From Actinomycetota bacterium (lineage in GTDB: Bacteria; Actinomycetota; Acidimicrobiia; Acidimicrobiales; JAJPHE01): a stretch of 64,000 nt of DNA. The DNA lies in NCBI GenBank assembly GCA_021325435.1, contig JAJPHE010000112.1, positions 1-64,000 on the forward strand, in the 5' to 3' direction. The position numbers and the translations under genes are program-made. Within the stretch, counting starts at the first letter, position 1. Every line of letters starts with the position of its first letter. The notes beneath the pieces are model-generated. The model saw only the letters and a list, made by a program, of their open reading frames with translations. It was not told the origin of the DNA and searched no databases. Shown one piece after another: positions 12,895 to 37,121 of the stretch.

Positions 12895-12925
12895 AAATGA
12901 AAAGCCGCCCACTACGTGGACGGCC
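12895..12925 (-). terminator. intrinsic terminator of the leuB attenuator
   Basis: Minus strand GCCGTCCAC-GTA-GTGGGCGGC followed by TTTTCATTT. Confidence 0.8.
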
Positions 12926-12929
12926 GAGG

Positions 12930-12955
12930 GCGCACACCGGGTCTCCGGCGTGCGC
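12930..12955 (-). promoter_or_regulatory. upstream (pause/anti-terminator-type) hairpin of the leuB attenuator
   Basis: GCGCAC..CCGG/CCGG..GTGCGC stem, partly overlapping the leader stop codon. Confidence 0.65.
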
Positions 12956-12990
12956 TACACGATGACGATTACCTGGTGCGGGGCTGACAC
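12955..12990 (-). CDS. leuB-operon leader peptide MSAPHQVIVIV
   Basis: GTG TCA GCC CCG CAC CAG GTA ATC GTC ATC GTG TAG; 5 consecutive Val/Ile codons immediately before stop, followed by hairpin and terminator. Confidence 0.75.
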   Translation of the reverse strand: MSAPHQVIVIV

Positions 12991-12999
12991 GACCCCTCC

Positions 13000-13028
13000 A
13001 GTGTCGCCTGCGGCGAGTTCGCAGTCAA
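13000..13028 (-). promoter_or_regulatory. candidate promoter of the leuB attenuator
   Basis: Minus strand TTGACT-17 bp-GACACT, 9 nt before the leader GTG. Confidence 0.55.
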
Positions 13029-13072
13029 CCCGCCCCGATCGGCGGCCGGGCGCCGGCGATAGCCTGGGATCC

Positions 13073-13546
13073 GTGAGCGAGACGCACCTGTCGCGGTCCA
13101 CCTACGAACGACTCCAGGCCGAGCTGGAGGACCTGACCACCCGGGGGAGGGTGGAGGTCGCCCAGCGGATCGAGGCCGCCCGGGCCCTGGGGGACCTGTC
13201 GGAGAACGGCGACTACCACGCGGCCAAGGACGACCAGGGGAAGATGGAGGCCCGGATCCGCCACATCCAGGCCCTGCTCAAGTCGGCCGTCCTGGTGGCG
13301 GACGACGCCGGTGACGGCGACCAGGTGGCAGCCGGGTCGGTCGTCTCCCTGCGCTACGAGGGGGACGAGGACATCGAGCGCTACCTCGTCGGCTCCATCG
13401 AGGAGCGCCACGACGAGGGCCTGGCGGTCATCTCCCCCGGGTCGCCCCTCGGCCAGGCCCTCATCGGTCGGGGGCCGGGCGACGTCGTCGAGTACCAGGC
13501 GCCGAGCGGCATCCTCAAGGTGGAGATCGTCGAGGTCGGCGGGTAG
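13073..13546 (+). CDS. greA: transcription elongation factor GreA
   Basis: LSRSTYERLQAELEDLTTRGRVEVAQRIEAARALGDLSENGDYHAAKDDQGKMEARI; GTG start. Confidence 0.95.
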   Translation: MSETHLSRSTYERLQAELEDLTTRGRVEVAQRIEAARALGDLSENGDYHAAKDDQGKMEARIRHIQALLKSAVLVADDAGDGDQVAAGSVVSLRYEGDEDIERYLVGSIEERHDEGLAVISPGSPLGQALIGRGPGDVVEYQAPSGILKVEIVEVGG

Positions 13547-13555
13547 CAGGCAGGG

Positions 13556-14233
13556 TCAGGCGGTCGGCGCCGGGCCGGCCCGGCCCAGGGCCAGCTCCAC
13601 CCGGCGGGCGGCGGCCACCACCGCCCCGGCGTAACGCCGGCCCGGCGCCCGGGTGGTGCGCTCGATCGGCCCTGACACAGACACGGCCGCCACCACCGGG
13701 CCATCGGGGCCGCCCCGCACCGGGGCCGACACCGAGGCCACGCCCTTCTCGCGCTCCTCGACGCTCTGGGCCCACCCCCGCCGGCGCACCCCCTCCACGT
13801 CACGCAGCACCGCCCCCGCCGAGCCCCGGTCGATTGGAAGGGAGGCGCCGACCGCCACGATCGTTCGCAGGCTGTGGGGGGACTCAAGCGAGACCAGGCA
13901 GACCCGGCGGTCGCCGGCTCGGACATATAGCTGGACGCTCTCGCCGGTGGCGTCGCGCAGTTCCTCTAGGGCGGGGCGGGCAGCTTCGGCGAGCGGCGGT
14001 CCCGCCAGGGCGGCCGACCCGAGACGGGCCAGGGTCCGCCCCAGGCCGAAGCGACCGTCTCCGGCCCGAGCGACCAACCCGTGGGACTCGAGGGCGAGAA
14101 GGAGGCGGTGGGCGGTGGCCCGGGGCATCCCGGTGGCCTCCACCGCCTCGCTCAGGCTCAGTGGTCCCGGCTCCAGGCACCCGAGGAGCGCCACCGCCTT
14201 GTCCAGGACGCCGACCCCGCTTACACTGTCCAT
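13556..14233 (-). CDS. IclR-family transcriptional regulator (LtbR/NdgR-like by position)
   Basis: VLDKAVALLGCLEPGPLSLSEAVEATGMPRATAHRLLLALESHGLV HTH; divergent from leuCD as in other Actinobacteria. Confidence 0.88.
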   Translation of the reverse strand: MDSVSGVGVLDKAVALLGCLEPGPLSLSEAVEATGMPRATAHRLLLALESHGLVARAGDGRFGLGRTLARLGSAALAGPPLAEAARPALEELRDATGESVQLYVRAGDRRVCLVSLESPHSLRTIVAVGASLPIDRGSAGAVLRDVEGVRRRGWAQSVEEREKGVASVSAPVRGGPDGPVVAAVSVSGPIERTTRAPGRRYAGAVVAAARRVELALGRAGPAPTA

Positions 14234-14248
14234 AACGCGAGATCACTG

Positions 14249-14263
14249 TCTCATATAGTGAGA
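14249..14263. promoter_or_regulatory. inverted repeat TCTCA-TATAG-TGAGA in the iclR/leuC intergenic region, candidate operator
   Basis: Perfect 5-bp half-sites with 5-bp spacer, between divergent regulator and leuC; also contains TATAGT. Confidence 0.5.
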
Positions 14264-14300
14264 TGGAGTTCAAGCCCGGCGGCTACCGACGGAGGCTGTG

Positions 14301-15707
14301 ATGGCGACCCCCCGCACGTTGAGTGAGAAGGTCTGGGAGCGGCACGTGGTCCGCTCCGCCGACGGCGAGCCCGACCTGCTCTACATCGACCTGCACCTGG
14401 TGCACGAGGTCACCTCCCCCCAGGCGTTCGACGGCCTGCGGCTGGCGGGCCGCCCCGTGCGCCGGCCCGACCTGACCGTCGCCACCGCCGACCACAACGT
14501 GCCGACCGTCGACATCGACCGCCCGGTCGCCGACCCGGTGTCCGCCCGCCAGCTCGAGGTGTTGGCGGCCAACTGCGCCGAGTTCGGCGTCACTCTCTAC
14601 CCGATGGGCCACGCCCGCCAGGGCATCGTGCACGTGATCGGCCCCGAGCTCGGCTTGACCCAGCCGGGAATGACGATCGTCTGCGGCGACAGCCACACCT
14701 CCACCCATGGGGCCTTTGGCGCCCTGGCCTTCGGCATCGGCACCAGCGAGGTGGAACACGTGCTGGCCACCCAGACCCTGCCCCAGAGCCGTCCCGGCAC
14801 CATGGCGGTGACGGTGGAAGGGGAGCTGCCGGCAGGCGTCACCGCCAAGGACGTGATCCTCGCCATCATCGGCCGCATCGGCACGGGCGGCGGCATCGGG
14901 CAGGTGATCGAGTACCGGGGATCGGCCATCCGCTCCCTGTCGATGGAGGGCCGGATGACGGTGTGCAACATGAGCATCGAAGCCGGCGCCCGGGCCGGCA
15001 TGATCGCGGCGGACGACACCACGTTCGCCTACCTCGAGGGCCGGCCCCACGCCCCCAAGGGCAAGGCGTGGGAGCAGGCCCTCGACGACTGGAGGTCGCT
15101 GGCCACCGACGCCGGCGCCCGCTTCGACCGCACCGTCGAGCTCGACGCCACCAAGCTGGTGCCCCACGTGTCGTGGGGGACGAACCCGGCCCAGGTACAG
15201 CCGATCGACGGGGCGGTGCCCGACCCGGACTCTCTCTCCGACCCCTCCCAACGCGAGGCCGCGGCCCGAGCCCTGACCTACATGGGACTCACGCCCGGCA
15301 CGCCGATCCGCGACATCGCCGTCGACACGGTCTTCATCGGTTCGTGCACCAACTCTCGGATCGAGGACCTGCGGGCCGCCGCCGCCGTGGTCGAGGGCCG
15401 CCAGGTGCGCCCCGGCCTGCGGGCCCTCGTCGTCCCCGGGTCGCGCCAGGTGAAGGCCCAGGCCGAGGAAGAAGGGCTCGACCGGGTCTTCCGGGGGGCC
15501 GGTTTCGACTGGCGGGAGGCCGGATGCTCGATGTGCTTGGCCATGAACCCGGACAAGCTGTCTCCCGGTGAGCGGTGCGCTTCCACCTCGAACCGGAACT
15601 TCGAGGGACGCCAGGGTCGCGGGGGCCGCACCCATCTGGTCTCCCCGGCGGTGGCGGCCGCCACCGCCGTGGCGGGCCGGTTCGCCACGCCCGACGATCT
15701 CGACTGA
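14301..15707 (+). CDS. leuC: 3-isopropylmalate dehydratase large subunit
   Basis: [65 protein letters not shown] upstream of ATG 14301 (ORF start 14298). Confidence 0.96.
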
Positions 15708-15719
15708 CGAGGAGGAACG

Positions 15720-16316
15720 GTGGAGCCAGTGAAGGTGGTGTCGGGGCGGGCGGTGCCGCTCGACCGGTCCGACGTGGACACGGACCAGATCATCCCGAGC
15801 GACTGGCTGAAGCGGGTCGAGCGGACCGGCTTCGGTGCCGGCCTCTTCTCCGAGTGGCGCGACGAGCGCGACTTCGTGCTCAACCGTCCGGAGCACGCCG
15901 GGGCGACGATCCTCGTCGCCGGCCCCAACTTCGGCACCGGCTCGTCGCGCGAGCACGCGGTGTGGGCCCTGATGGACTACGGGTTCCAGGCGGTGATCTC
16001 GCCCCGGTTCGCCGACATCTTCCGCAACAACTGCACCAAGGCGGGGCTGGTGCCGGCGCAGGTGGCGCCCCAGGAGGGTCGCCGCCTTCTCGACGCGGTC
16101 ATCGCCGATCCTTCCCTCGAAGTGACGGTGGACGTCGAGCGGGGCCTGGTGTCGGTGCCGGCCGTAGGCATCGAGGCGACCTTCGAGCTCGACGAGTTCA
16201 CCCGCTACCGGCTGCTGAATGGCCTCGACGATGTCGGGCTCACCCTCCGCCACGAAGACCGGATCGCCTCCTACGAAGCGGCCCGGGCGGCCTGGCTGCC
16301 GTCAGCGTCCGGCTGA
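15720..16316 (+). CDS. leuD: 3-isopropylmalate dehydratase small subunit
   Basis: VDTDQIIPSDWLKRV, GPNFGTGSSREHAVWALMDYGF. Confidence 0.96.
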   Translation: MEPVKVVSGRAVPLDRSDVDTDQIIPSDWLKRVERTGFGAGLFSEWRDERDFVLNRPEHAGATILVAGPNFGTGSSREHAVWALMDYGFQAVISPRFADIFRNNCTKAGLVPAQVAPQEGRRLLDAVIADPSLEVTVDVERGLVSVPAVGIEATFELDEFTRYRLLNGLDDVGLTLRHEDRIASYEAARAAWLPSASG

Positions 16317-16325
16317 GCCGCCCGC

Positions 16326-16919
16326 TCAGGGGGTGGTGGAGGGAGGGCTCACCGATACTGGGGCGGAGCCCAGGTCGGTGACGGCGGAGACCTTCCACTG
16401 GCCGTTGGCCTTGGTCAGGTCGACCACCAGGCGGAGCTCGTCGGCGGCCGGGCCCTTCGAGGCCGAGTTGGCGTAGGTCTGGTCGACCAGGCCGTAGAAG
16501 CTGGCCTGGTCGTTGCCGAAGCTCTGGAGGTACAGGTAGCGGATCTGGCCCCGGGTCGAGGCCTGCGCCGCCTGCAGTTGGGATCGGATCCGCGAGTTGA
16601 AGAACACCTTGGCTTGCTGGGCGAACTGGCCGGTCCCCATGGCGTCGATCTGGTTGAAGTCGCTGTCGACGGTCTTGGCGTCGAAGTTGGTGAGCAGGTT
16701 GAGGAACCGGTTGGCCACCGACTGGGCGGCCGTCTGGTCGCTGTTGCGACTCTGGAGCTCGGCCCAGGCGATGCCGAACCCGATGGTGCCGAGCATGCCG
16801 GCGGCGGCGATGACGGCCAGGATCCACAGCCGCCACCGATGCCAGAGCCCCGGTTCGTTCGTCGTGCTGGCGGGCGACGACGCCGGAGCCCCCACCACCC
16901 GCACCCCGTCGTCGGTCAT
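16326..16919 (-). CDS. Mce-associated membrane protein (Mas-like)
   Basis: Single TM plus extracytoplasmic domain, last gene of mce operon; ATG 16919 overlaps MceF-position stop. Confidence 0.75.
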   Translation of the reverse strand: MTDDGVRVVGAPASSPASTTNEPGLWHRWRLWILAVIAAAGMLGTIGFGIAWAELQSRNSDQTAAQSVANRFLNLLTNFDAKTVDSDFNQIDAMGTGQFAQQAKVFFNSRIRSQLQAAQASTRGQIRYLYLQSFGNDQASFYGLVDQTYANSASKGPAADELRLVVDLTKANGQWKVSAVTDLGSAPVSVSPPSTTP

Positions 16920-18277
16920 CTCCTCCACCAGGCTCTCCCCGGCGGGCGCCGGGCGGCGGGGTCGGCCGGTGTGGCCAGCCTGCCGGCCAGCATGATGCCA
17001 AGCAGGACGGTCGCTCCGAGGGCCAGCGGCACGGCCGAGCCGGAACCGGTGGGGGCCGCCGTCACCGGGGCCCGGTAGGCGGCCGGTTGCGCCGCCGGGC
17101 TGGCGCCCCCTCGTACCTGGCTCTCGGCCGCGGTGGGGGGAACCACCCGGCCTCCGGGCCCGGGCGGGGACGGGTTGGCCTGGGCCGCCGCCGGCGCGCC
17201 CGAACCGAACTCGGTGTTGCATGCCGCCCCCGGCTTGGTGGCGGGGAGGTCGCGCACCTGGGCGTAGGACTGGGCCGGCGGCTGCTTGGGCGGCAGGAAC
17301 AGCCGGGTGCGCAGCCAGTACTGGCTGTGGGCGGGGTCACCGGGCCACAGGCTCTTCGCCGGCCCCTGCGGGGCCACGGCGTCGACCGCCCCGAAGAACC
17401 ACTCGTTGGTGCGCAGGGAGGTGTCGAGGTTGGCCAGGTTGGCCCCCGAGCCGAGGTTGGCGTTCAGGTCGGCGAAGTCGTGGATGAGGCAGGCCAGGTT
17501 CGGCAGCTGGGAGCCGACGAGGCTCTGCAGGTCACCGCCGGCCTCGGCCCCGTTCACCAGGGCGGTGGACATGTCGAAGCGGCGGTCGGCCAGCACCTGG
17601 GTCAACACCGCCGTGTTGGTCAGCGCCTGACGCAGCTCCGGGCCCACCGCCGACACCGAGTCGAGCACCGGCGGCGAGTTGGCCAGCAAGGACTTGAACT
17701 GGTCCTGGTAGCGCAGGAACTCGTCGGCGAACTGGCGGCTGGCATCGGTGATGGTGCGCATGTCCTGCCCGCGGCCATTGAGCGCCACCGCCATCTCGTG
17801 CAGCACGGTGTTGAGGTCGTCCGGGGGCACGGCGTCGAGGAGCCGGGTGGCCACCGCCACCAGCTTGCCGACGCTGGCGGGCACGCCGTTGGGGTCGACC
17901 GGCACCACAGCGCCGTCGCGCAGCGGCGGGGCGGTTCCGCCCCGGGTGGGCTTGAGGTCGACCTGCTGCTCGCCCAGGGCGTTGGCCAGGTCGACCGAGG
18001 CGACCACGTCGGACGGCACGACCACTCCGGGGTCGAACGACATGACGACCCGCACCCCGGTTGGGGCGAACTTCACCGCGCTCACCTGTCCGACGTCGAC
18101 GCCGTTGTAGGTGACGCTGAAGTGCTGGTGCAGCCCCGAGGCGTCGGGGAAGATGGCCGACACCTGGGTCCGTCCCCGGAACGGGTTGCCCAGCAGGTTG
18201 ACCACGCCCAGCACGACCAGGGCGACCGCGGCGGTGAGGAAGGTGATCATGTTGATGATCGTGCGCCGGGTGATCAT
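16916..18277 (-). CDS. Mce family protein (MceF position)
   Basis: TM then FRGRTQVSAIFPDASGLHQHFSVTYNGVDVGQV; MlaD/Mce domain. Confidence 0.88.
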   Translation of the reverse strand: MITRRTIINMITFLTAAVALVVLGVVNLLGNPFRGRTQVSAIFPDASGLHQHFSVTYNGVDVGQVSAVKFAPTGVRVVMSFDPGVVVPSDVVASVDLANALGEQQVDLKPTRGGTAPPLRDGAVVPVDPNGVPASVGKLVAVATRLLDAVPPDDLNTVLHEMAVALNGRGQDMRTITDASRQFADEFLRYQDQFKSLLANSPPVLDSVSAVGPELRQALTNTAVLTQVLADRRFDMSTALVNGAEAGGDLQSLVGSQLPNLACLIHDFADLNANLGSGANLANLDTSLRTNEWFFGAVDAVAPQGPAKSLWPGDPAHSQYWLRTRLFLPPKQPPAQSYAQVRDLPATKPGAACNTEFGSGAPAAAQANPSPPGPGGRVVPPTAAESQVRGGASPAAQPAAYRAPVTAAPTGSGSAVPLALGATVLLGIMLAGRLATPADPAARRPPGRAWWRR

Positions 18278-19305
18278 GGGGTCCCCCCGGGGGGCGGGGT
18301 GCACGCCCCGGCCTGGCTGGTCGGGTCGTCGCCTCCGTTGGGCAACCCGCAGATGACCAGGTCGTCGAGGACCTGGACGAAGCGGTCGAAGGTGGCCTGG
18401 GCCGCAGCCCGGTTGTGACCCTGGAGATATGTGACCAGCAGGGCCAGGTCCTGCTGGCGGGCGGCGACGGCGTTGGTGGCGTCGGCCAACCCCGTCAGCT
18501 GGTCGTTCATCTGGGGCAGGTAGGACTCGAGCAGGCTGCGTCCCTGCAGGGACAGGTTGTTGAGCGATGCGAGCAACTGGTTGAAGCGGTCCGATTGCTG
18601 GGCGAGGATCGTCGTGGTGCGGGCCAGGTTGGAGACGGCCTCGGCGCCGGCCTGGGCGTCGGGCCCCGTGGCCGAGCCCAGCTGGTCGAGCGAGCTGACC
18701 AGGGCCCGGATGGTGTCGGTCTGGCCGGCGTAGCCGGCGGTGATGTCCGAGAAGCTGGCCAGCAGCTGGTGCAGCTGAGCTCCCTCGCCCCCGAAGCCCT
18801 GTCCGCCGGCCTGCACGAGGACCGCCAGCTGGTTGGCGCTGATGGGGCCGAACACCTGGGCCCCGCCCTTCACCAGCTGCTCGAGCTCGGGGACCACCCG
18901 GGTGTGGGCGATGGTGGCCCCGTCGGCGAGGAGGGGGCTGTGGTCGGTGGTGCCGGGGTCGGGCACCAGTTCGATGAACCGCTCGCCGAGAACGGTGGTG
19001 CGGCGCACCTCGGCGGTCACGTTGGCCGGCACCCGGGCCGATGACGAGACGGAGATCTCCACCCGGGCCTGGTTCCCGTCGAGGGTGATGCTCTTCACCG
19101 AGCCGATGTTGATGTCGGCCATCTGCACCGGGGCTCCGACGGCGAGGTCAGAGACGTCGGAGAAGGCGGCCGACGCCGTCACCTGCTGCCCGGCTCCGAC
19201 GCCGCAGCTGCTCAACAATCCGCAGGCAACGGCGATCGCCAATCCGGCCGCCCACCGCCCGAGGCGCGACGCCCGAGGCCGTCCCAGGATGGCGACCCCG
19301 GTCAC
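18274..19305 (-). CDS. Mce family lipoprotein (MceE position)
   Basis: Lipobox GLLSSC, VTASAAFSDVSDLAVGAPVQMADINIGSV. Confidence 0.88.
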   Translation of the reverse strand: MTGVAILGRPRASRLGRWAAGLAIAVACGLLSSCGVGAGQQVTASAAFSDVSDLAVGAPVQMADINIGSVKSITLDGNQARVEISVSSSARVPANVTAEVRRTTVLGERFIELVPDPGTTDHSPLLADGATIAHTRVVPELEQLVKGGAQVFGPISANQLAVLVQAGGQGFGGEGAQLHQLLASFSDITAGYAGQTDTIRALVSSLDQLGSATGPDAQAGAEAVSNLARTTTILAQQSDRFNQLLASLNNLSLQGRSLLESYLPQMNDQLTGLADATNAVAARQQDLALLVTYLQGHNRAAAQATFDRFVQVLDDLVICGLPNGGDDPTSQAGACTPPPGGTP

Positions 19306-20708
19306 AGCATCCCTCCGATGAAGGAGAAGACGTGGTGGCCGGCCGAGGCGAAGGCCCCCACGAACGTGGCGAACACCCCGGGGGAGGCCGACGCCGACGG
19401 CAGGGCCGGCAGCGGGGGGAGGAGGGTGCTCGGGGGCGACGATGGGGTGGACGGCGAGTTCGGCGTGCTAGCCGGCGTGGGCAACGTGCCCTGCGAGAGC
19501 GTGGACTGCTGCTGGGGGGTCAGGCCGGGGATCTTGGCGACCCCTTGGGACAGCGCCTGCTGGGGCGTCAGAGTCGGGCCGCCGGACTGGGCGCCCGACA
19601 CCCCGTTGAGGATGCCGGTGATCTGGCCGAGGATCGGGTCGAAGTAGCCCGAGGCCGGATCCCCGCACTTCTGCAGCGTCTGGATCTCCGCCGGCGGCAG
19701 ACCCTGGCTGTGGTGGGCCAGCACCCGGCGGCAGATGCCGGCCAACCGGTCGCGGACCTCGTCGGCGACGACCATGGAGGGGGTGTTCGGCGGTGACTGG
19801 TTGTTGAGGTTGAGCCAGCGCCGGGTGGGGTCGTAGGCCCGGTTGGCGGCGGCGAACAGCTTGACGGAGGCGGACAGCCCGGTGTCGACCGAGTCGAGGT
19901 TGCGGTCGATGGTCCGGCCGGTGGTGGTGAGGACGTTGAGGTCCTGCTGGATCCCCGACAGGTTCGGCGTCAGCAGGCCCGCCAGCTGCTGGCTGGCGGC
20001 GGCCAGCGAGCTGACGGCGGCGTCGAGCTGCTGGCGGTCGGTGGCGATGACCCCCGAGACGGTGTCGTAGTCGCGGATGAGGGCTTCGATGTCCGAGGTC
20101 CGCGAGTCGAGGGTGCCGGTCAGCTGAGCCAGGGAGCCGTTCAGCTGGCCCAGCTGGTTTCCCTTGTCGGCGAGCAGGCTGATGGTGCCGGCGGCGTGCC
20201 CGATCAGGTCGTTGAGCGCCTGGCCCTGCCCATCGAGGATCTGGGCCAGGTTGGCCACGGCATCGTGGACGTTGGACGGGTTGATCTGCTGCAGGTAGTT
20301 GGTGAACTCGTTGAGGATCGTGTTGGTCTCGACCGGCACCGACGTACGCGACTCGGGGATCACGGCGCCCGGCTGCAGGCGGGGGCCGCCGGTGTAGCCG
20401 GGCTCGAGGTCGACCGACCGCTGGCCGAGCAGCTCCGGCGCCACGACGATGGCCCGCACCGAGGAGGGCACGGGGTGGGCCGACGGGAGGTTCATGGTCA
20501 CCACCACGTGGTCGCCCTCATTGCGCACCGCCGTCACCGATCCCACCGTCAACCCCAGGATCTGCACGTGCGAGCCGGGGAACACTCCCTGCCCGTTGGC
20601 GAACACGGCGGAGAAGGTGTAGCCGGAGCCGCTGCCTGCGCACGACGACAGCAGGCCGCCCGCGGCGGCCAGGGCCGCCACCGCGCCCAGGAGCCGGCGG
20701 GCTCTCAC
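19302..20708 (-). CDS. Mce family lipoprotein (MceD position)
   Basis: Lipobox GGLLSSC, YTFSAVFANGQGVFPGSHVQILGLTVGSV. Confidence 0.88.
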   Translation of the reverse strand: MRARRLLGAVAALAAAGGLLSSCAGSGSGYTFSAVFANGQGVFPGSHVQILGLTVGSVTAVRNEGDHVVVTMNLPSAHPVPSSVRAIVVAPELLGQRSVDLEPGYTGGPRLQPGAVIPESRTSVPVETNTILNEFTNYLQQINPSNVHDAVANLAQILDGQGQALNDLIGHAAGTISLLADKGNQLGQLNGSLAQLTGTLDSRTSDIEALIRDYDTVSGVIATDRQQLDAAVSSLAAASQQLAGLLTPNLSGIQQDLNVLTTTGRTIDRNLDSVDTGLSASVKLFAAANRAYDPTRRWLNLNNQSPPNTPSMVVADEVRDRLAGICRRVLAHHSQGLPPAEIQTLQKCGDPASGYFDPILGQITGILNGVSGAQSGGPTLTPQQALSQGVAKIPGLTPQQQSTLSQGTLPTPASTPNSPSTPSSPPSTLLPPLPALPSASASPGVFATFVGAFASAGHHVFSFIGGML

Positions 20709-27050: not shown

Positions 27051-27066
27051 CCCCCGAGACCAGGCC

Positions 27067-28611
27067 CTACGGGCCGATCTCGGAGGCTCGCACCTCGTTG
27101 CGGGCCTTCACCCTGATGATGCGGTTCACCGCGTTGAGGAAGGCCCGGGCCGAGGCTTCCACCACGTCCGTGGACACGCCCCGACCCGACACCCTGATCC
27201 CGTCGTGCTCGAGCTGGACGACCACGTCGCCCAGGGCGTCCACCCCGCCAGTCACCGACGACACGTTGAAGCCGAGGAGCGAGGCGTCGACGCCAGTGGC
27301 CGCCTTGATCGCCTGGCAGGCGGCGTCGATCATGCCGTCGTCCTCCGCCGTCTGCTCCGACTTCTCTCCGGTGCGAGACAGCACCACCCGGGCCCGGGGC
27401 GTGTCGACGGTCCCTCCTTGCACCTCGAGGGCCTCGAGGGTGAAGCCCTGCTCGACGTTGGTTCCGAGCTCCTCGGCGACGATGGCCTCGAGGTCGGCGT
27501 CGGTGATCTGCACCTTGCGGTCGGCCAGCTCCTTGAACCGGGTGAAGGCGGCGTTGAGGGCATCGCCCTGAACGACCAGGCCCATCTTGGCCAGCGTGTC
27601 AGCGAAGGCGTGCCGGCCCGAGTGCTTCCCCAGGACGATCTGGCGACCGGTCTGACCAACGGCGGAGGCATCGATGATCTCGTAGGTGGTCCGCTCGGCC
27701 AGCACACCGTGCTGGTGGATGCCCGACTCGTGGGCGAAGGCGTTGCGCCCCACCACCGCCTTGTTGTACTGGACGGGGTAACCGGTGAGGCGCGACACCA
27801 GCCGGCTGGTGCGAGCCAGTTCCTCCGTGTTGACCCCCACTTCGATGCCCTCGAACTGGTCCGGCCGGGTCCTCACGGCCATGACGATCTCCTCGAGGGC
27901 GGCGTTGCCCGCCCGCTCGCCGAGCCCGTTGACGCATACCTCCACCTGACGGGCGCCGGCGTTGACCCCCGCCAACGAGTTCGCCACGGCCAGGCCGAGG
28001 TCGTTGTGGCAGTGGGTGGAGATCACATAGTCGCCAGGGACGTTGTCGCGCACGTACTGGATGATCGTCCCGAAGTCCCAGGGGATGCCGTAGCCGACCG
28101 TGTCGGGGATGTTGAGGGTGGTCGCCCCGCTGTCCACCGCCACCTGCAGCACTTCGATCATGAAGTCGAGCGGGGTGCGGGTGGCGTCCTGCGGGCTGAA
28201 CTCCACGTCGTCGGTGTAGGTCCGGGCGCGGGCGACTCCCGCGGCCGTCTCCTGCTTCACCTGCTCCGGGGTCATCTTGAGCATGTGCTCCATGTGGCTG
28301 GGGCTGGTCGAGATGAACACGTGGATGCGGGCCCGCGCCGCCGGGCGCAGGGCCTCCCAACAGCGATCGACATCGGCGAGGTGGGTGCGGGACAGCCCGG
28401 CGATCACCGGGCCCTGCACCGACCGAGAGATGGCCTCGACTGCCTCGAAGTCACCCTGGCTGGCCACGGGAAAGCCGGCTTCGATGTAGTCGACGCCCAG
28501 ACGGGCGAGCTGCTCGGCGATCTCGAGCTTCTCGGCCACGTCGAGGGAGATGCCCGGCGACTGCTCGCCGTCTCTCAAGGTGGTGTCGAAGATGATCAGT
28601 CGCTCGGCCAT
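27067..28611 (-). CDS. leuA: 2-isopropylmalate synthase (short, ~515 aa type)
   Basis: LIIFDTTLRDGEQSPGISLDVAEKLEIAEQLARLGVDYIEAGFP, STHCHNDLGLAVANSLAGV, C-terminal LeuA dimer domain. Confidence 0.95.
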   Translation of the reverse strand: MAERLIIFDTTLRDGEQSPGISLDVAEKLEIAEQLARLGVDYIEAGFPVASQGDFEAVEAISRSVQGPVIAGLSRTHLADVDRCWEALRPAARARIHVFISTSPSHMEHMLKMTPEQVKQETAAGVARARTYTDDVEFSPQDATRTPLDFMIEVLQVAVDSGATTLNIPDTVGYGIPWDFGTIIQYVRDNVPGDYVISTHCHNDLGLAVANSLAGVNAGARQVEVCVNGLGERAGNAALEEIVMAVRTRPDQFEGIEVGVNTEELARTSRLVSRLTGYPVQYNKAVVGRNAFAHESGIHQHGVLAERTTYEIIDASAVGQTGRQIVLGKHSGRHAFADTLAKMGLVVQGDALNAAFTRFKELADRKVQITDADLEAIVAEELGTNVEQGFTLEALEVQGGTVDTPRARVVLSRTGEKSEQTAEDDGMIDAACQAIKAATGVDASLLGFNVSSVTGGVDALGDVVVQLEHDGIRVSGRGVSTDVVEASARAFLNAVNRIIRVKARNEVRASEIGP

Positions 28612-28645
28612 CGGTTTTCCGTCCTTTGTGTCGTGCCGGGGCAAC

Positions 28646-28676
28646 AAAAAACCCCCTGGCCCGGAGGCGCAGGAGG
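28646..28676 (-). terminator. intrinsic terminator of the leuA attenuator
   Basis: Minus strand CCTCCTG-C-GCC-TCCG-GGC-CAGGGGG followed by TTTTTTG. Confidence 0.82.
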
Positions 28677-28679
28677 CGA

Positions 28680-28704
28680 GGCGAGCACGCTTGCGGCGCT
28701 CGCC
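28680..28704 (-). promoter_or_regulatory. upstream hairpin of the leuA attenuator
   Basis: GGCGAGC...GCTCGCC 7-bp stem directly after the leader stop. Confidence 0.6.
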
Positions 28705-28705
28705 G

Positions 28706-28741
28706 TCAGGTAAGGAGAAGGGTGGTGCCCACCAGAGTCAT
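28706..28741 (-). CDS. leuA leader peptide MTLVGTTLLLT
   Basis: ATG ACT CTG GTG GGC ACC ACC CTT CTC CTT ACC TGA; four Leu codons, two of them CTT (expected to be uncommon in so GC-rich a genome); followed by hairpin and terminator. Confidence 0.82.
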   Translation of the reverse strand: MTLVGTTLLLT

Positions 28742-28748
28742 CGTGGCC

Positions 28749-28777
28749 ATACTGGCGGAAGGCTGACAATGAGTCAA
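28749..28777 (-). promoter_or_regulatory. candidate promoter of leuA leader
   Basis: Minus strand TTGACT-17 bp-CAGTAT, 7 nt before leader ATG (consistent with leaderless mRNA). Confidence 0.65.
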
Positions 28778-29653
28778 GGCGTCCACGACTACGGTGTCGG
28801 CGACCGGGGAGGGAGCGGGCGGGTGAGAAAGTCATTCAGGGTCGGCGTGCGGCTGGGGCTGATGGCGGGGCTGATCGTTGCCGTGGTTGTCGCTCTCCGC
28901 TCACGCCGTGGCACCACCGACGAAGCCACCGGCGTGCACGGCGACTGGCCTCCTGTCCGTCCGGCTGCGCCCCGCCCGGCGCAGCCGACTCGTCCGACGC
29001 CGGCCCGGCCCCCGCAGGCCGCCCGGCCCGCCGAATCGGCCCCACCCCCCGCCCGAGCCCCCGAAGCCACCCGGCCCGCCGCTCCGGCCCCGCCACCCAC
29101 GAAACCGCCCGAGGCGACCCGGGCCGTCGATCCGACCCCGCCGACGCCTCCTCCCGGCCCCGCCGCCGCCCCCGGCGAGCCGGTAGCCGAGCCCGGCCCC
29201 GGCAAGCCCGCTGCCGAGTCGTTGACCTCGGCGCTGGCCACGCCGGCGCCGGCGGCCAAAGCGGCCAAGACGGCCAAGGCCGCCAAGGCGGCCGCCCAGG
29301 TGGCGAAGAAGGCGGCCGGGGCGGCCAAGGGCCCGGTCGAAAAGGCCGTGGCCAAGAAAGTGGCCAAGAAGGCGGCCAAGAAGGCCGGCGGCGAGAAGAC
29401 AGCCGGTCCGGCGGGAGGAGCGGGCGCCCCATCCGGCAGAGCCTCGACACCGGACAAGGCCCCGACGGCCGAGAAGGCCCCCGCCAAGAAGGCACTGCCC
29501 AAGAAGGCCGCGGCCAAGAAGGCGGCCAAGAAAGCAGCGAAGAAGGCGGCGCCGGAGACGTCGTCGGGGAGGCCTGGCCCCGCCGCGGGCGGCACTCCCC
29601 CGGACGAGGGGGGCGCGGGCCCGTCCTCCGGCGGGACCCCCGAGACTAGCTAG
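28769..29653 (+). CDS. membrane-anchored Pro-rich protein with Lys/Ala (AKKAAKKA) histone-H1-like tail; alternative start GTG 28823
   Basis: VGVRLGLMAGLIVAVVVAL TM; Pro-rich linker; repeated KAAKKA/AKKAAKKAAKKAAP C-terminal region. Confidence 0.7.
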   Translation: MSQGVHDYGVGDRGGSGRVRKSFRVGVRLGLMAGLIVAVVVALRSRRGTTDEATGVHGDWPPVRPAAPRPAQPTRPTPARPPQAARPAESAPPPARAPEATRPAAPAPPPTKPPEATRAVDPTPPTPPPGPAAAPGEPVAEPGPGKPAAESLTSALATPAPAAKAAKTAKAAKAAAQVAKKAAGAAKGPVEKAVAKKVAKKAAKKAGGEKTAGPAGGAGAPSGRASTPDKAPTAEKAPAKKALPKKAAAKKAAKKAAKKAAPETSSGRPGPAAGGTPPDEGGAGPSSGGTPETS

Positions 29654-29686
29654 CTCCGACCGGGCCCCGGAGGCCCGGCGGGCGGA

Positions 29687-31264
29687 TCAGGGGACCGCCG
29701 CCACCCGGTGAACCTCGAGGATCCCGTCGGCCTTGCCCAACCGGTCGAGCACCTCGGCGGACACGGCCGTCTCGGTCGCCAGCACCATCAGGGCCGTGCC
29801 CCCGCTGGGCGACTGGCCCACCGCCATGTTGGTGATGCTGAGGCCGGCCTCCCCGAGGACGGTGCCCACGATGCCGATCATGCCGGGGCGGTCGTCGTTC
29901 CGTACGACCAGCATGTTGGCCGCCGGGGGCAGCTCGACCATGTGGTCGTCAACCATGACGATGCGGGGCTCGGCTCGGCCGCCGGCGACGGTCCCCGCCG
30001 TGGCGTGGCTTCCACCGCGCAGGGTGATCCGGTTCAGGTAGTCATGGGCCGACGTGCTGGTTGTCTCGCGCACCTCGACCCCCCGCTCGGCCGCCAGCTG
30101 TGGCGCGTTCACGTAGGAGACGGGCTCGTCGGTGGTCCCCCCGGCGGCGAAGATCCCCTTCAGCACCGAAAGGGTGAGTATCCGGGTGTCGTGTTCGGCC
30201 AGGGCTCCCTCGTAGGAGATCTCGAGTACCGACGGCAGCCCGTCGTGGAGGCTGGCGAACACGGCGCCCAGCCACTCGGCCAGGCGGAGGAAGGGCCGCA
30301 CCGCTTCCGAGGCCTCGGCGGCGGCGACGTTGACGGCGAAGGGGACGAACTCGCCGGAGAGGGCGAGCAACACCTGCTCGGCGACGGTGACGCCTGCCTT
30401 GTCCTGGGCCTCCTGGGTCGAAGCTCCCAGATGGGGGGTCACCACCACCCCGTCCAGTTCGAACAGCGGCGAGCTGGTGCACGGCTCGCTGGCGAACACG
30501 TCGAGGGCGGCGCCGGCCACCTGCCCCGAGCGGATGGCGTCGGCCAGGGCGTCCTCGTCGATGATGCCGCCCCGGGCGGCGTTGACGATGCGCAGACCGG
30601 GCTTGGCCTTGGCCAGCAGGTCCTTGCCGATGAGCCCGGTGCTCTCCGCCGTCTTGAGCAGATGGATGGTGACGAAGTCGGACTCGGCGAACAGGGCTTC
30701 GAGGTCCATCAGCTCGATGCCGAGCTGACGGGCCCGCTCCGGGGCCACCCAGGGGTCCCAGGCCACCAGGCGCATGCCGAACGCCAGGGCCCGCTGGGCG
30801 ACGAGCGTGCCGATGCGGCCCAGCCCCACGACGCCGAGCGTCTTGCCGTGCAGCTCTACCCCGCCCCACCTCGACTTCTCCCAGCGGCCAGCCAGCAGGG
30901 CGGCGTGGGCCTGGGGGATGTTGCGGGCCATGGAGAGCAAGAGGGCCATGGTGTGCTCGGCGGTGGACAGGGTGACCGACTGGGGGGCGTTAACCACCAT
31001 GACGCCCCGTCGGGTGGCGGCTGGCACGTCCACGTTGTCGAGACCGATGCCGGCCCGACCCACCACCACCAGCTCCCGTCCGGCCTCGATGACCTCGGCG
31101 GTCACCTTGGTGGCCGACCGCACCAGCACGGCGTGGGCTCCCCGCACCGCCTCGATCAGCTCGTCAGGGGACATGCCGAGGCGCACGTCGACCTCGTGGC
31201 CCGCCCGGGCCAGGGCGGAAAGACCCGACTCGGCCAGCTCCTCGGTGACCAGGATCCTCGCCAC
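29687..31264 (-). CDS. serA: D-3-phosphoglycerate dehydrogenase
   Basis: RSATKVTAEVIEAG, GLGRIGTLVAQRA, NAARGGIIDEDAL, C-terminal ASB and ACT domains. Confidence 0.95.
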   Translation of the reverse strand: MARILVTEELAESGLSALARAGHEVDVRLGMSPDELIEAVRGAHAVLVRSATKVTAEVIEAGRELVVVGRAGIGLDNVDVPAATRRGVMVVNAPQSVTLSTAEHTMALLLSMARNIPQAHAALLAGRWEKSRWGGVELHGKTLGVVGLGRIGTLVAQRALAFGMRLVAWDPWVAPERARQLGIELMDLEALFAESDFVTIHLLKTAESTGLIGKDLLAKAKPGLRIVNAARGGIIDEDALADAIRSGQVAGAALDVFASEPCTSSPLFELDGVVVTPHLGASTQEAQDKAGVTVAEQVLLALSGEFVPFAVNVAAAEASEAVRPFLRLAEWLGAVFASLHDGLPSVLEISYEGALAEHDTRILTLSVLKGIFAAGGTTDEPVSYVNAPQLAAERGVEVRETTSTSAHDYLNRITLRGGSHATAGTVAGGRAEPRIVMVDDHMVELPPAANMLVVRNDDRPGMIGIVGTVLGEAGLSITNMAVGQSPSGGTALMVLATETAVSAEVLDRLGKADGILEVHRVAAVP

Positions 31265-32469
31265 TAGCCCTCCCCGAGCAGCTTGTCGATGCGGTTGACG
31301 CCCTCCTCGAGGTCGTCGTCACCGAGGGCATAGGACATGCGGGCGTACCCGGGGGCGCCGAAAGCCTCGCCGGGGACGATCGCCACCTTGGCCTCGTCGA
31401 GGATGACCTCGGCCAGCTCGAGGGTGGTCTGCGGGCGGCGACCACGCAGCTCGCGACCGAGCACGCCCGAGAACGAAGGAAAGGCGTAGAACGCCCCCTC
31501 CGGCTCGATGCAGGACACCCCGGCGATGTCGTTCAGCATCTCGTGGATCCGCCGCCGGCGCCGGTCGAAGGCGTCGCGCATCATGGCCACCGCCGACAGG
31601 TCGCCACTGACGGCGGCGAGAGCGGCCCGCTGCGACACGTTGGCCACGTTCGACGTGCAGTGAGTCTGCAGGTTGGTGGCTGCCTTGATGACGTCGGCCG
31701 GCCCGATCATCCAGCCCACCCGCCACCCGGTCATGGCGTAGGTCTTGGCCACCCCGTTCACCACCACGCACCGGTCCGCCAGCTCGGGCACGACGACCGG
31801 CATCGAGTGGAACGTCCGGCCGCCATAGACCAGGTGCTCGTAGATTTCGTCGGTCACCACCCACAGCCCGTGGGCGGCCGCCCAGGCACCGACCGCTTCG
31901 ATCTCGGCCCGGTCGTAGACCGCCCCGGTCGGGTTGGACGGCGAGACGAAGAGCAGCACCTTGGTCCGGGGAGAGCGGGCCGCCTCCAGGGCGTCGACGC
32001 TCGCCTTGAACCCCGTGGTCTCGTCGGTCGGAACCGGCACCGGCACCCCACCGGCGAGGGCGATGGCCTCGGGATAGGTCACCCAGTAGGGGGCGGGGAC
32101 GAGCACCTCGTCGCCCGGGTCGAGAAGGGTGGCAAAGGTGTTGTAGACGGCCTGCTTTCCGCCGTTGGTGACCAGCACCTGCCCGGCATCCACGGCCAGG
32201 CCGGAGTCGCGGGCGGTCTTGGCTGCGATGGCCTGGCGCAGCTCGGGCAGGCCCGACGTCGGGGTGTAGCGGTGGTTGGCCGGATCGGAGCAGGCGGCCG
32301 CCGCCGCCTCCACGATCTCCTTGGGGGTGGGGAAATCGGGCTCCCCGGCCCCGAACCCGATCACCGGCTCACCGGCCGCCTTGAGCGCCTTGGCCTTGGC
32401 GTCGATGGCCAGGGTGGCCGATTCCGCAACCGCTGCGATCCGTCGGGAGATCCTCTCCATTCCTGCCAT
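31264..32469 (-). CDS. aspartate/aromatic aminotransferase, class I PLP (AspC-like)
   Basis: [51 protein letters not shown]; start 32469 or 32460. Confidence 0.93.
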
Positions 32470-32478
32470 GCTTGCACA

Positions 32479-33612
32479 GTGACCGCGCAGCAGATTCCCG
32501 ATATCAAGATCCCCGCGGACCTCCTTCCTGGCGACGGGCGCTTCGGCTGCGGGCCGTCCAAGGTGCGCCCGGAGGCGGTCCGGGCCCTGGCCGACCGGGC
32601 GCTCGACTATCTCGGCACCAGTCACCGCCAGCCGGGGGTGCGCAGCGTGGTCGGCCGCCTACGGGCCGAGCTGGCCGAGCTGTTCTCCCTGCCCGAGGGC
32701 TACGAGGTCGTCCTCGGCAACGGGGGCACCACGGCGTTCTGGGACGCGGCGACCTTCTGCCTCATCGAGGAGCGCAGCCAGCATCTGTCCTTCGGCGAGT
32801 TCTCCTCCAAGTTCGCCGCCGCCGCGGCCGCCGCCCCCCACCTCAAGGACCCGGAGGTCATCGAGTCGGCGGCCGGCACCCACCCCGAGGCGGTGGCCCG
32901 CGACGACGTCGACCTCTACGCCTTGACCCACAACGAGACCTCGACCGGCGTCATGATGCAGCTGACCCGGCCCCCGGGCTCGTCCGGTCTGGTGGCGGTG
33001 GACGCCACGTCGGGCGCCGGCGGTCTGCGGTTCGACGCCTCCCAGGTGGACGTCTACTACTTCGCACCCCAGAAGTGCTTCGCCTCCGACGGGGGCCTGT
33101 GGGTGGCGGCCTACTCGCCGGCGGCGGTGGAGCGGATCGAGCGTACGGCGTCGTCCGGGCGCTGGGTGCCGGCGTCCCTCGACCTCGCCGTCGCCCTCGA
33201 CAACTCGCGTAAGGACCAGACCTACAACACCCCGGCGCTGGCCACCCTGTTCCTGTTCGTCGACCAGGTCGAATGGATGCTGGGCAACGGCGGCCTCGAG
33301 TGGGCGGCCTCGCGTTCGGACGCCTCCGCCGACCACCTGTACTCGTGGGCCGAGGGGGCCGACTACGCCAGCCCCTTCGTGTCCGACCCGGCCGAGCGCA
33401 GCCGGGTGGTCGGCACCGTCGATCTCGACGAGTCGATCGACGCCCCGACCATCAGCAAGGTCCTGCGGGCCAACGGCATCGTCGACACCGAGTCCTACCG
33501 AAAGCTGGGCCGCAACCAGCTTCGGATCGGCATGTTCCCCGCGGTGGAGCCCGACGACGTCGTCGCCCTCACCCGGTCGATCGACCACGTGGTGGGCCAG
33601 CTCCGGGGCTGA
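32479..33612 (+). CDS. serC: phosphoserine aminotransferase (actinobacterial type)
   Basis: [55 protein letters not shown] start. Confidence 0.94.
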
Positions 33613-33642
33613 GCCCACCGGGCCACCGACGGTTGGTTGGGG

Positions 33643-34668
33643 TCAGCCCCCGGAGACGTCCTGCGGCCGGGCCCGTCCGGCCGAGATCCACGGCATCATG
33701 GCCCGCAGCTCGGCGCCCACCTTCTCGATCGGGTGGGAGGCGCCGGCCGAGCGCAGCTCGCTGAAGCGCTTGCGTCCGGTGCGGTTCTCGGCCACCCACT
33801 CCTCGGCGAAGTGCCCTGAGCGGATCTCCTCGAGGATGCGGCCCATCTCCTGGCGGACGGCGGCGTTGATGACCCGCGGGCCCCGGGTCAGGTCGCCGTA
33901 CTCGGCGGTGTCCGAGATCGAGAAGCGCATGCCGGTGATGCCGCCCTCGTACATGAGGTCGACGATGAGCTTCAGCTCGTGCAGGCACTCGAAGTAAGCC
34001 GACTCGGGCTGGTAGCCGGCGTTGACCAGCGTCTCGTACCCGGCGGTGACGAGGGCCGTCAGGCCTCCGCACAACACGACCTGCTCGCCGAACAGGTCGG
34101 TCTCGGTCTCCTCCTCGAAGGTCGTCTCCAGCACGCCGGCCCGGGCGGCGCCGATGCCGTGGGCGTAGGAGAGGGCGATCTGCTTGGCCTTGCCGCTGGC
34201 GTCCTGGGCCACCGCCACCAGGGCGGGTACCCCGCCGCCCTCCGTGTAGGTCCGTCGGACCAGGTGGCCGGGGCCCTTCGGTGCGACCATGGCCACGTCG
34301 ACGCCCGCCGGCGGGGTGATCTGCTCGAAGCGGATGTTGAACCCGTGGGCGAAGAACAGAGCGTCCCCCTCGCGCAGGTTCGGGCCGATGGAGGACTCGA
34401 ACACCGCCTTCTGCTCGGTGTCGGGCAGGAGGATCATGATCAGGTCTGCCTCGGCGGCGGCCTCGTCGAGGGGGAGGACCCGGAGGCCCTCCGACCGGGC
34501 CTTGTCGGCGGACGACGAGCCTTGGCGCAGCCCGACCCGCACGTCGACACCGGAGTCGCGCAGGTTGAGGGCGTGGGCGTGGCCCTGGGACCCGTAGCCG
34601 AGAATCGCCACCTTGCGGGCGGCGATCAGGGCCGGGTCCACGTCCTTCTCGTAGAAAAGCTTGGCCAT
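33643..34668 (-). CDS. ilvC: ketol-acid reductoisomerase
   Basis: [43 protein letters not shown]. Confidence 0.97.
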
Positions 34669-34672
34669 CGCT

Positions 34673-35215
34673 TCACACCACCTTCCCGGTAACGCTGCGC
34701 AGGCGGGGCGCCTGGCGGTCCAGCTTGGGCAGGGCGACCCGGCCCGTCCGCTGCAGCTCCACGATCCCGTAGGGTCGCATCAGCTCCTCGAAGTCGTCGA
34801 CCTTGCCCGGCGGCCCCGTGACCACGAGGGTGAGGGCGTCGGGGGAGACGTCGACGATGCGGCCCTCGAAGATGCCGACCAGCTCCATGATCTGGCTGCG
34901 CACGCCGGGCTCGGAACGCACCGTCATGAGGAGGAGCTCCATCTCGGTGGCTCGGGCCGGGTCCAGCTCGGAGATCTTGACCACATTGATCAGCTTGAAC
35001 AGCTGCTTGGTGATCTGCTCGAGGGGCGCCGACTCGACGTCGACGACGATGGTGAGGCGGCTGAAGCGGTCGTCGTCGGTCGGGGCCACGGCGAGGGAGT
35101 AGATGTTGAACCCTCGCCGGGCGAACAGGCCGGCCACCCGGGCCAGCACGCCCGCCTTGTTCTCCACCAGCACCGACAGGATGTGGTGGCGGCTGGATGT
35201 GCCGGGCGGGGTCAC
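34673..35215 (-). CDS. ilvH: acetolactate synthase small subunit
   Basis: [37 protein letters not shown] start overlapping ilvB stop. Confidence 0.96.
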
Positions 35216-36954
35216 CGGCCCCCCTCGCCCTGGCTCGGTCCGAGGATGATGTCGTCGTTCGAGGTGCCGGCCGCCACCATCGGGTAGACCTTCTCGCGGC
35301 TGTCGGTTCGGAAGTCGATCACCACCGGACGGTCGTCGATCTGGTTCGCCTTGTCGATCGCCGGCAGCACCTCCTCCGGGCTCTCCACTCGCAGCCCGAC
35401 GCAGCCCATCGCCTCCGCCCACTTCACGTAGTCGGGCAGGTCCGGAGACAGGTACACCTCGGAGTAGCGCTCCTCGTAGAAGAGCTCCTGCCACTGGCGG
35501 ACCATCCCCAGGTAGGCGTTGTTCAGGATGGCGACCTTGACCGGAATGCGCTCCGCCGAGGCGGTGACCAGCTCCTGGGCCGTCATCTGGAAGCAGCCGT
35601 CGCCGTCGACCGCCCACACCATCCGGTCGGGCCGGCCGACCTTGGCCCCCACCGCGGCTGGAACGGCGAACCCCATGGTCCCGAGGCCGCCCGAGTTGAC
35701 CCAGGTGTAGGGATGGTCGAACCGCCAGTACTGACTGGTCCACATCTGGTGCTGGCCGACGCCCGACACCACGATGGTGTCGTCCGGGGTGTTGTCGCGC
35801 AGGGTCTCGACGACGAACTGGGGCTTGAGCGAGCCGTCGTCCGGATCGCGCTGGTAGGTGAGCGGGTAGCGGGCCTGCCATTCACGGATCTGGGCGATCC
35901 ACCGGGCCCGGTCGGCGGGCTCGAACGACTCGTCTTGGTGGAGGGCGCGGACCGCCTTGATCAGCTCCTCGATGACCAGACGGCAGTCCCCGACGATCGG
36001 CACATCGGGCCGCCGGACCTTGCCCAGCTCGGCCGGGTCGATGTCCACGTGGACGATCTTCGCCTCCGGGGCGAAGGCCGCCACCTTGCCGGTCACCCGG
36101 TCGTCGAAGCGGGCTCCGAGGGTGATCAGCAGGTCGGACTTCTGCATGGAGGTGACGGCGGTGTAGTTGCCGTGCATGCCCGGCATGCCGAGACACAGCT
36201 CGTGGCTGTCCGGGAAGGCGCCCCGGGCCATGAGGGTGGTCACTACCGGAACGCCGGTGAGCTCGACCAGCTCGAGCAGGGCCTCGGCCGCTCGCGCCTT
36301 GAGGATCCCCCCGCCGGCGTAGATGACCGGACGCTCGGCCGAGGAGATCAGGCGGGCGGCCTCGCGGATCATCCGCCCGTTGCCCCGGGTGGTGGGCCGG
36401 TATCCCGGCAGGTCGGCCTCCACGTCGGCGTCGGTCGGCCAGTACCAGTCCATCATCTGGTTGCTGATGTCCTTGGGCACGTCGACCAGGACCGGGCCGG
36501 GTCGGCCGCTGCTGGCCAGATGGAACGCCTCGCGCACGACCAGCGGGATGTCGGCGGCGTCGGTCACCAGCCAGTTGTGCTTGGTGACGCTCATGGTGAT
36601 GCCGGTGGTGTCGCACTCCTGAAAGGCGTCGGTGCCGATGGCGGTGGACGCCACCTGCCCGGTGATGCACACCATGGGGACCGAGTCCATGTAGGCGTCG
36701 CACAACGGGGTGACGATGTTGGTGGCGGCCGGGCCACTGGTCACCATGGCCACCCCGGGGCGCCCGGTGACATGGGCGTAGCCCTCGGCCATGTGGCCGG
36801 CGCCCTGCTCGTGGCGGACGAGGATGTGGCGGATGGGCGAGTCGATGATCGGGTCGTACACCGGGAGGATGGCCCCGCCCGGCAGACCGAACATGACCTC
36901 GACCCCTTCCATCTCGAGGCTCTTGATGAGGGCCTGGGCCCCGGTCAGCTTCAT
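35212..36954 (-). CDS. ilvB: acetolactate synthase large subunit
   Basis: [31 protein letters not shown]-binding [12 protein letters not shown]. Confidence 0.97.
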
Positions 36955-36990
36955 CTCTTCTCCTGGAACGCCGCTGGGAGTGCTCGGGAA

Positions 36991-37018
36991 ATGAAAAGAC
37001 CTCCCGTTCGGGAGGTCT
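36991..37018 (-). terminator. intrinsic terminator of the ilvB attenuator
   Basis: Minus strand AGACCTCCC-GAAC-GGGAGGTCT then TTTCATTT. Confidence 0.88.
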
Positions 37019-37021
37019 CGT

Positions 37022-37047
37022 GCGCACGCGCTGGTGTCGGCGTGCGC
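37022..37047 (-). promoter_or_regulatory. upstream hairpin of the ilvB attenuator
   Basis: GCGCACGC-N10-GCGTGCGC immediately after leader stop; near-identical to the leuB attenuator hairpin. Confidence 0.7.
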
Positions 37048-37083
37048 TTAGGTAACGATTACGAGGATGCGGACACCGGTCAT
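37048..37083 (-). CDS. ilvB leader peptide MTGVRILVIVT
   Basis: ATG ACC GGT GTC CGC ATC CTC GTA ATC GTT ACC TAA; 6 Ile/Leu/Val codons; followed by hairpin and terminator. Confidence 0.85.
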   Translation of the reverse strand: MTGVRILVIVT

Positions 37084-37093
37084 GGCGGGGCTG

Positions 37094-37121
37094 ATAGTAC
37101 ACGACCGCCGTCGGATGGCAA
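37094..37121 (-). promoter_or_regulatory. promoter of ilvB leader
   Basis: Minus strand TTGCCA-16 bp-TACTAT, 10 nt before leader ATG. Confidence 0.65.

Follow-up and report, generated by a model that had tools for sequence, protein, structure and literature searches.

Background

In Streptomyces lividans, leaderless leader peptides have been reported before ilvBHC, leuA, leuS and trpE (PMC8079986), and ilvB leaders with terminators have been predicted in Corynebacterium, Mycobacterium and Streptomyces, with a mode of regulation that was described as unclear (PMC1262725). Experiments support attenuation of ilvB in Corynebacterium and Mycobacterium tuberculosis (PMC10272879, PMC11857589, PMC13236596), and leaderless initiation has been discussed for the leader of the ilvB-II motif and of Corynebacterium glutamicum ilvBNC (PMC10272879, PMC11857589). 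In the present study, we analyzed a stretch of 64,000 nucleotides (the window; positions 1 to 64,000 of contig JAJPHE010000112.1, assembly GCA_021325435.1) from a member of the Acidimicrobiales, in which candidate leaders precede leuB, leuA and ilvB. These are very likely three leader-peptide transcription attenuators for the synthesis of branched-chain amino acids (BCAA), and the three peptide genes very probably act as supply sensors. The layout described in the first-pass annotation of this DNA, namely a promoter, an open reading frame (ORF) of 11 codons, a hairpin (hairpin 1) and an intrinsic terminator, is present at all three sites (Table 1). Sequence and comparison together give the promoter, the ORF, the codon bias, both hairpins, the conservation of these parts and the agreement of the codons with the gene behind them. 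End-product codons in a short ORF, an intrinsic terminator before the gene and conservation of the element together with the gene, three features of the broad class of leader-peptide attenuators, were all found. In our best reading, the known kind is ribosome-mediated transcription attenuation and the unusual part is the tandem-hairpin layout. A literature search found no report of such leaders for Acidimicrobiia, which is weak evidence, as most subscription journals were beyond reach.

The leaders resemble IlvL (ilvBHC) and LeuL1 (leuA) of S. lividans TK24, leaderless short ORFs of 13 and 15 amino acids that contain BCAA codons and precede ilvB and leuA, although the leaderless state is a prediction here (PMC8079986). 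The S. lividans ilvB leader has a Rho-independent terminator, as in the window, whereas LeuL1 lacks the typical terminator that the examined leuA leaders here possess; furthermore, the S. lividans list contains no leuB or cimA leader, and a good distance separates its BCAA codons from the stop codon (PMC8079986). Seliverstov et al. (2005, PMC1262725), whose survey lay outside Acidimicrobiia, described actinobacterial ilvB leaders and LEU elements with Ile/Val/Leu-run ORFs and terminators before ilvB and a Leu run before leuA, which is similar to our findings. However, the leuA element of the survey is a pseudoknot in which Leu codons pair with the Shine-Dalgarno sequence, a pairing that is unsupported here, where a terminator is present, and its ilvB ORFs overlap the terminator (PMC1262725), whereas ours end upstream of hairpin 1. 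In the ilvB-II motif and C. glutamicum ilvBNC, as in our leaders, a BCAA-rich ORF is accompanied by one hairpin (P1) and then by a terminator hairpin (P2) with a U-tract (PMC10272879, PMC11857589). M. tuberculosis ilvB1NC shares the regulatory codons (LVVI) and the intrinsic terminator, with leader termination experimentally supported there, but its leader is 166 nt long and a switch between terminator and antiterminator has been proposed for it (PMC13236596). In the ilvB-II/C. glutamicum leader, the ORF takes up the greater part of P1 and an antiterminator has been drawn, whereas here the ORF ends where hairpin 1 starts and no antiterminator was found. Canestrari et al. (2020) reportedly described leaderless polycysteine ORFs of mycobacteria, in which a short ORF likewise senses one amino acid. 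PMC13236596 describes these as translation attenuation of cysteine genes, whereas the terminator here implies transcription attenuation.

Conservation of the leaders across Acidimicrobiales

Orthologues were compared in 59 genomes, mostly one per family of the order. The 350 nt upstream of each gene were searched for short ORFs with at least four Ile, Leu or Val in six residues, and structure was not used. By this ORF criterion only, peptides with such a run were found upstream of 11 of 30 leuB and 22 of 30 ilvB orthologues; for leuA the count was 12 of 26, including the window's own peptide, which falls just short of the criterion and was counted by eye. In all, ORFs with Ile/Leu/Val runs precede leuB, leuA and ilvB orthologues in about 57 families of Acidimicrobiales, and both hairpin 1 and the terminator fold in all of the leaders chosen by peptide alone. 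Covariance models made from these alignments (R1 for leuB, R2 for leuA and R3 for ilvB) were searched genome-wide. R2 matched strongly in 49 of the 59 genomes, once in each, R1 gave strong matches before leuB or cimA in about 36, and R3 matched in 52, partly through the related leuB element; the E-values reach down to 1e-27. Since the peptides picked without reference to structure also carry both hairpins, and the models match genome-wide, chance is excluded. Comparative alignment across the order, proposed in the first-pass annotation as a check, thus finds the leaders conserved.

Covariation points in the same direction. With alignments that were fitted to the models, and are to that extent biased towards the structure, two-sided changes were observed in 20 of 20 pairs for leuA, 16 of 20 for leuB and 8 of 17 for ilvB, and none of 500 shuffles was as high. 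The cells of the base-pair counts were paired in 97-99% of cases, and the signal was lost when one strand was slid. Compensatory changes were already visible in MAFFT alignments. No Rfam 15 family, leader and ilvB motifs included, exceeded its gathering threshold at the three sites, and a known Rfam leader or riboswitch was therefore rejected. Elsewhere in the source genome (4.0 Mb over 160 contigs, of which the window is one part), the best extra R1 match (E 0.07, contig C60) was without a BCAA leader, and a second R2 match (E 0.35) was left uninspected.

Within the order, the same Leu leader stands before the genes of two unrelated kinds of 2-isopropylmalate synthase, the type found in the window (27067-28611) and the PRK03739/TIGR00970-type of genome G001; the loci compared with the window leuA were L188, L173, L311 and L301. 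Thus, the cis element either outlived a gene replacement or travelled with the gene. Distant members of the phylum have an R2-type element before leuS (peptides with SLLLT or NLLLR) or ilvB (LVLIT). The tandem-hairpin Leu leader precedes leuS, the gene for leucyl-tRNA synthetase, in other classes of the phylum (L302, L308 and L313). At L222 (4538-4618), a leader of the general kind described here, Leu included (ALVILLV), was observed before ilvE.

Codon content of the leader peptides

Codon content was scored on the last seven residues of the peptides. The tails of leuA leaders contain 48% Leu, 3% Val and 1% Ile; those of leuB-led leaders, 29% Ile, 23% Val and 2% Leu; those of leaders directly before cimA, 59% Ile, 6% Val and 1% Leu; and those of ilvB leaders, 30% Val, 25% Leu and 10% Ile. 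The three-way codon partition claimed from the window alone thus recurs in dozens of families and tracks the downstream gene, even where the leader precedes cimA only and its peptide has IIII. Because the models include the last six codons, matches found with them lean somewhat towards the starting codons, and rearranged loci are therefore the stronger test of the partition. At loci of the Ilumatobacteraceae type the order is leuB-ilvE-leader-cimA, with 26-89 nt between the leader and cimA, and the peptides end in AIIIIR, VIIIIR or SIIIIP. An Ile run was also found in genomes G006 and G008, which have cimA and leuB at separate places, and in G115 from another order of the class (SIIIIS, FIIIP and SIIIIA). 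In G031 (locus L114), where no cimA was detected, the leuB leader keeps both hairpins with the peptide MSPRSISVLH, so that in this single case Leu is gained and the Ile run is gone. Judged by these comparisons, the codon partition is real and follows the enzymes encoded downstream.

LeuB works in the leucine route and the citramalate route alike. As cimA is the second gene after leuB in the window, the first operon comprises leuB, ilvE and cimA and serves the route from pyruvate to isoleucine, and the leuB leader reads Val and Ile because this operon encodes citramalate synthase, an isoleucine gene. The first-pass annotation was right that this leader has Val and Ile only, but overlooked cimA in the operon as the reason for the absent Leu. 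A literature search combining attenuation and leader peptides with citramalate synthase and isoleucine returned one unrelated metabolic-engineering paper, which again is weak evidence with most subscription journals out of reach.

Rare codons are about 15-40-fold enriched in the leaders when eight window genes are taken as the reference set. GTA makes up 42 of 63 Val codons in ilvB leaders and 23 of 46 in leuB leaders versus 6 of 367 in the window genes; CTT, 76 of 190 Leu codons in leuA leaders versus 7 of 336; and ATT, 23 of 63 Ile codons in leuB leaders versus 4 of 187. CTT and GTA also keep to set positions, codon -2 of leuA leaders for CTT and codons -3/-4 of ilvB leaders for GTA. For Leu, the ilvB leaders take CTC and not CTT; thus, rarity alone does not account for the choice of codon.

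Promoters and hairpin geometry

The best -35/-10 pair averages 7.10 before 116 leaders versus 5.09 +/- 0.74 in shuffled sequence, with a spacing of 17-18 in 100 of the 116. In 111 of the 116, a distance of 6-10 nt separates the end of the -10 from the start codon; at the window sites, it is 9 nt to the GTG of the leuB leader, 7 nt to the ATG of the leuA leader and 10 nt to the ATG of the ilvB leader. Given the usual distance of initiation, the RNA would begin at or almost at the start codon. The position of the promoter thus supports the prediction that the leader transcripts are leaderless, a suggestion of the first-pass annotation that gains strong comparative support. The equal length of 11 residues, also put forward there, does not hold as a rule, and a fixed length was rejected, since the peptides range from 8 to 24 residues with modes at 11 and 12; 11/11/11 is partly a coincidence.

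Hairpin 1 starts at -2 to +1 nt relative to the end of the stop codon in the 116 leaders, and 0-5 nt separate its end from the terminator. A strong hairpin within 6 nt was found for 95% of the leader terminators, versus 33% of a small control set of 18 other terminators from the same loci and 26% of shuffled leader upstreams. Minimum-energy folds consist of two independent hairpins in most leaders, and the two strands of each hairpin pair with each other far better than with shuffled or cross-genome controls. Cross-pairing of the leader, the leader tail and the hairpin-1 strands with both strands of the terminator was no better than with shuffled or cross-genome partners in the 116 leaders, and often worse; in ilvB leaders, the 3' arm of hairpin 1 beats shuffles in only 3%, i.e. 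pairing is avoided. The competing 1:2/2:3/3:4 structures envisaged at the outset were thus sought by folding and pairing energies and none was found, and the classical 2:3 antiterminator was rejected.

Proposed mechanism and alternatives

Leaderless transcription, starvation-dependent readthrough and the mode of action of hairpin 1 are what we infer from these data. The polymerase would start at the start codon of the short ORF, and a 70S ribosome would translate the leaderless mRNA at once. The sensing codons would be the last three to five before the stop: Leu codons in the leuA leader, Val/Ile codons in that of leuB-ilvE-cimA and Leu/Val/Ile codons in that of ilvBNC, with a preference for rare synonyms. 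The position of the ribosome would then decide between termination at the intrinsic terminator, which lies some 30 nt downstream of the stop codon, and readthrough into the operon. Each operon may in this way sense its own products: leuA would respond to leucine, the citramalate operon to isoleucine (with valine) and the acetolactate synthase operon to all three. With a standard ribosome footprint, the 5' arm of hairpin 1 is fully covered while the stop codon occupies the ribosomal A site, whereas a stall four to five codons earlier leaves the arm free; hairpin 1 would thus form under starvation. Once formed flush with the base of the terminator, it might, as we suggest with low confidence, block closure of the terminator's basal pairs. 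We put forward, tentatively, an attenuator without an antiterminator, in which hairpin 1, flush with the stop codon and the terminator base, would be a steric switch forming only on an early stall, and in which the module would have been reprogrammed in its last codons and reused before leuA, ilvB, leuB, cimA and, in other classes, leuS.

Several points weigh against our interpretation. The most biased codon of leuA leaders is CTT at -2, and a ribosome stalled there already covers much of hairpin 1, which is a poor fit to a steric role. No conserved antiterminator was seen in folds with and without the 3' arm of the terminator. About one third of the genomes of the order are without a leuB/cimA leader detectable in the R1 search. 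Furthermore, in work cited in PMC1262725, replacement of the candidate codons upstream of ilvB in S. coelicolor left regulation unchanged; thus, look-alike leaders are not always codon-controlled.

One possible alternative, about as likely as the steric switch, is that hairpin 1 is a pause hairpin for RNA polymerase that lets the leaderless ribosome catch up, with switching by coupling of ribosome and polymerase. Its position straight after the ORF would cause a pause before the terminator is complete, and its structure is conserved with compensatory changes; however, a pause accounts for synchronisation and not for how starvation stops termination. A classical four-segment attenuator of the trp/his type, with hairpin 1 as 1:2, the terminator as 3:4 and a 2:3 antiterminator formed on a stall, seems improbable. 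The leader peptide and the terminator are textbook parts of such a device, and published proposals include an antiterminator in M. tuberculosis ilvB1 (PMC13236596) and three hairpins in the C. glutamicum ilvBNC leader (PMC11857589), but the folds here give mostly two independent hairpins, and duplex energies with the 5' arm of the terminator are no better than those of shuffles. By the folding and pairing comparisons, the classical competing switch is absent; we do not class the leaders as four-segment attenuators because the defining antiterminator was tested for and not found.

It is very unlikely that the leaders are LEU-element-like, that is, a pseudoknot or protein-binding element whose Leu codons pair with the Shine-Dalgarno sequence of leuA for control of translation. 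The gene is the same, a Leu run is present, and the Leu codons contain CUCCUU, which looks like an anti-Shine-Dalgarno sequence. However, a strong terminator lies between leader and leuA, the leuB and ilvB leaders have the same layout, and pairing of the leader tail with the Shine-Dalgarno region of leuA is weaker than in synonymous-codon controls, for which reason such a stem was rejected. Just as doubtful is the view that the ORFs are incidental and the elements plain 5' terminators or small RNAs without codon sensing; the S. coelicolor result (cited in PMC1262725) would agree with it, but the frame, the gene-matched terminal codons and the enrichment of rare codons would not otherwise be kept. 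We thus return to codon-sensing leader-peptide attenuation as the reading that we prefer.

Locus and gene identities

Every gene of interest and all three leaders lie on the minus strand (Table 1). A Shine-Dalgarno-like sequence of its own precedes each main gene (leuB GTG 12813, leuA ATG 28611 and ilvB ATG 36954). The named relatives of LeuB are mostly metagenome-assembled genomes of Acidimicrobiales or Acidimicrobiia. Divergent from the leuB leader promoter is greA (13073 onward, plus strand), and a greA-like coding sequence apparently flanks leuB in several relatives too. A c-di-GMP-I riboswitch was found at 40026-40114 on the plus strand (72 bits; gathering threshold 35), directly preceding the ORF of a CAP/SCP-domain protein (40162-41421).

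Table 1. Positions in the window of the leader features and of the genes downstream of them
Feature	Position	Strand	Basis
leuB-ilvE-cimA leader promoter: -35 TTGACT, 17 bp, -10 GACACT	12998..13028	-	Sequence; position conserved in leuB-type leaders
leuB leader ORF MSAPHQVIVIV, GTG start 12990, TAG stop, Val/Ile run	12955..12990	-	Sequence and orthologues
leuB leader hairpin 1, base overlaps stop codon	12930..12955	-	Covariation in 9/9 pairs
leuB leader intrinsic terminator hairpin and U-tract	12895..12926	-	Folding, alignment, covariation
leuA leader promoter: -35 TTGACT, 17 bp, -10 CAGTAT	28749..28777	-	Sequence; promoter scoring
leuA leader ORF MTLVGTTLLLT, ATG start 28741, TGA stop, Leu run	28706..28741	-	Sequence and orthologues
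leuA leader hairpin 1	28680..28704	-	Covariation in 9/9 pairs
leuA leader intrinsic terminator with T6 tract	28643..28678	-	Covariation in 11/11 pairs
ilvB leader promoter, directly after ilvD stop: -35 TTGCCA, 16 bp, -10 TACTAT	37094..37121	-	Sequence; promoter scoring
ilvB leader ORF MTGVRILVIVT, ATG start 37083, TAA stop, Leu/Val/Ile run	37048..37083	-	Sequence and orthologues
ilvB leader hairpin 1, starts right behind stop codon	37022..37047	-	Covariation in 5/8 pairs
ilvB leader intrinsic terminator	36989..37019	-	Folding, alignment, covariation
leuB, 3-isopropylmalate dehydrogenase	11803..12813	-	NCBIfam NF002898 above cut-off; GTG start 12813 behind AGGAGAGG
ilvE, branched-chain aminotransferase	10878..11801	-	TIGR01122 above cut-off
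cimA, citramalate synthase (isoleucine route)	9242..10888	-	TIGR00977, 652 bits, cut-off 450
leuA, 2-isopropylmalate synthase, ATG start 28611	27067..28611	-	NF002086 and TIGR00973 above cut-off
ilvB, acetolactate synthase large subunit	35212..36954	-	NF005860 and other NCBIfam families
ilvN, downstream of ilvB	within 34673-35881	-	NCBIfam
ilvC, downstream of ilvB	33643-34668	-	NCBIfam

Implications

The leaders of Acidimicrobiales amount to a natural experiment on the specificity of attenuators, in which one module is found in many families and its terminal codons change with the downstream gene. They include an isoleucine version before citramalate synthase, a gene for which our literature search found no attenuator. 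The order, and to a weaker degree the phylum, has retained a two-hairpin layout without an antiterminator. This calls for a mechanistic explanation and may be relevant to the unclear outcome of mutating codons in the ilvB leader of S. coelicolor.

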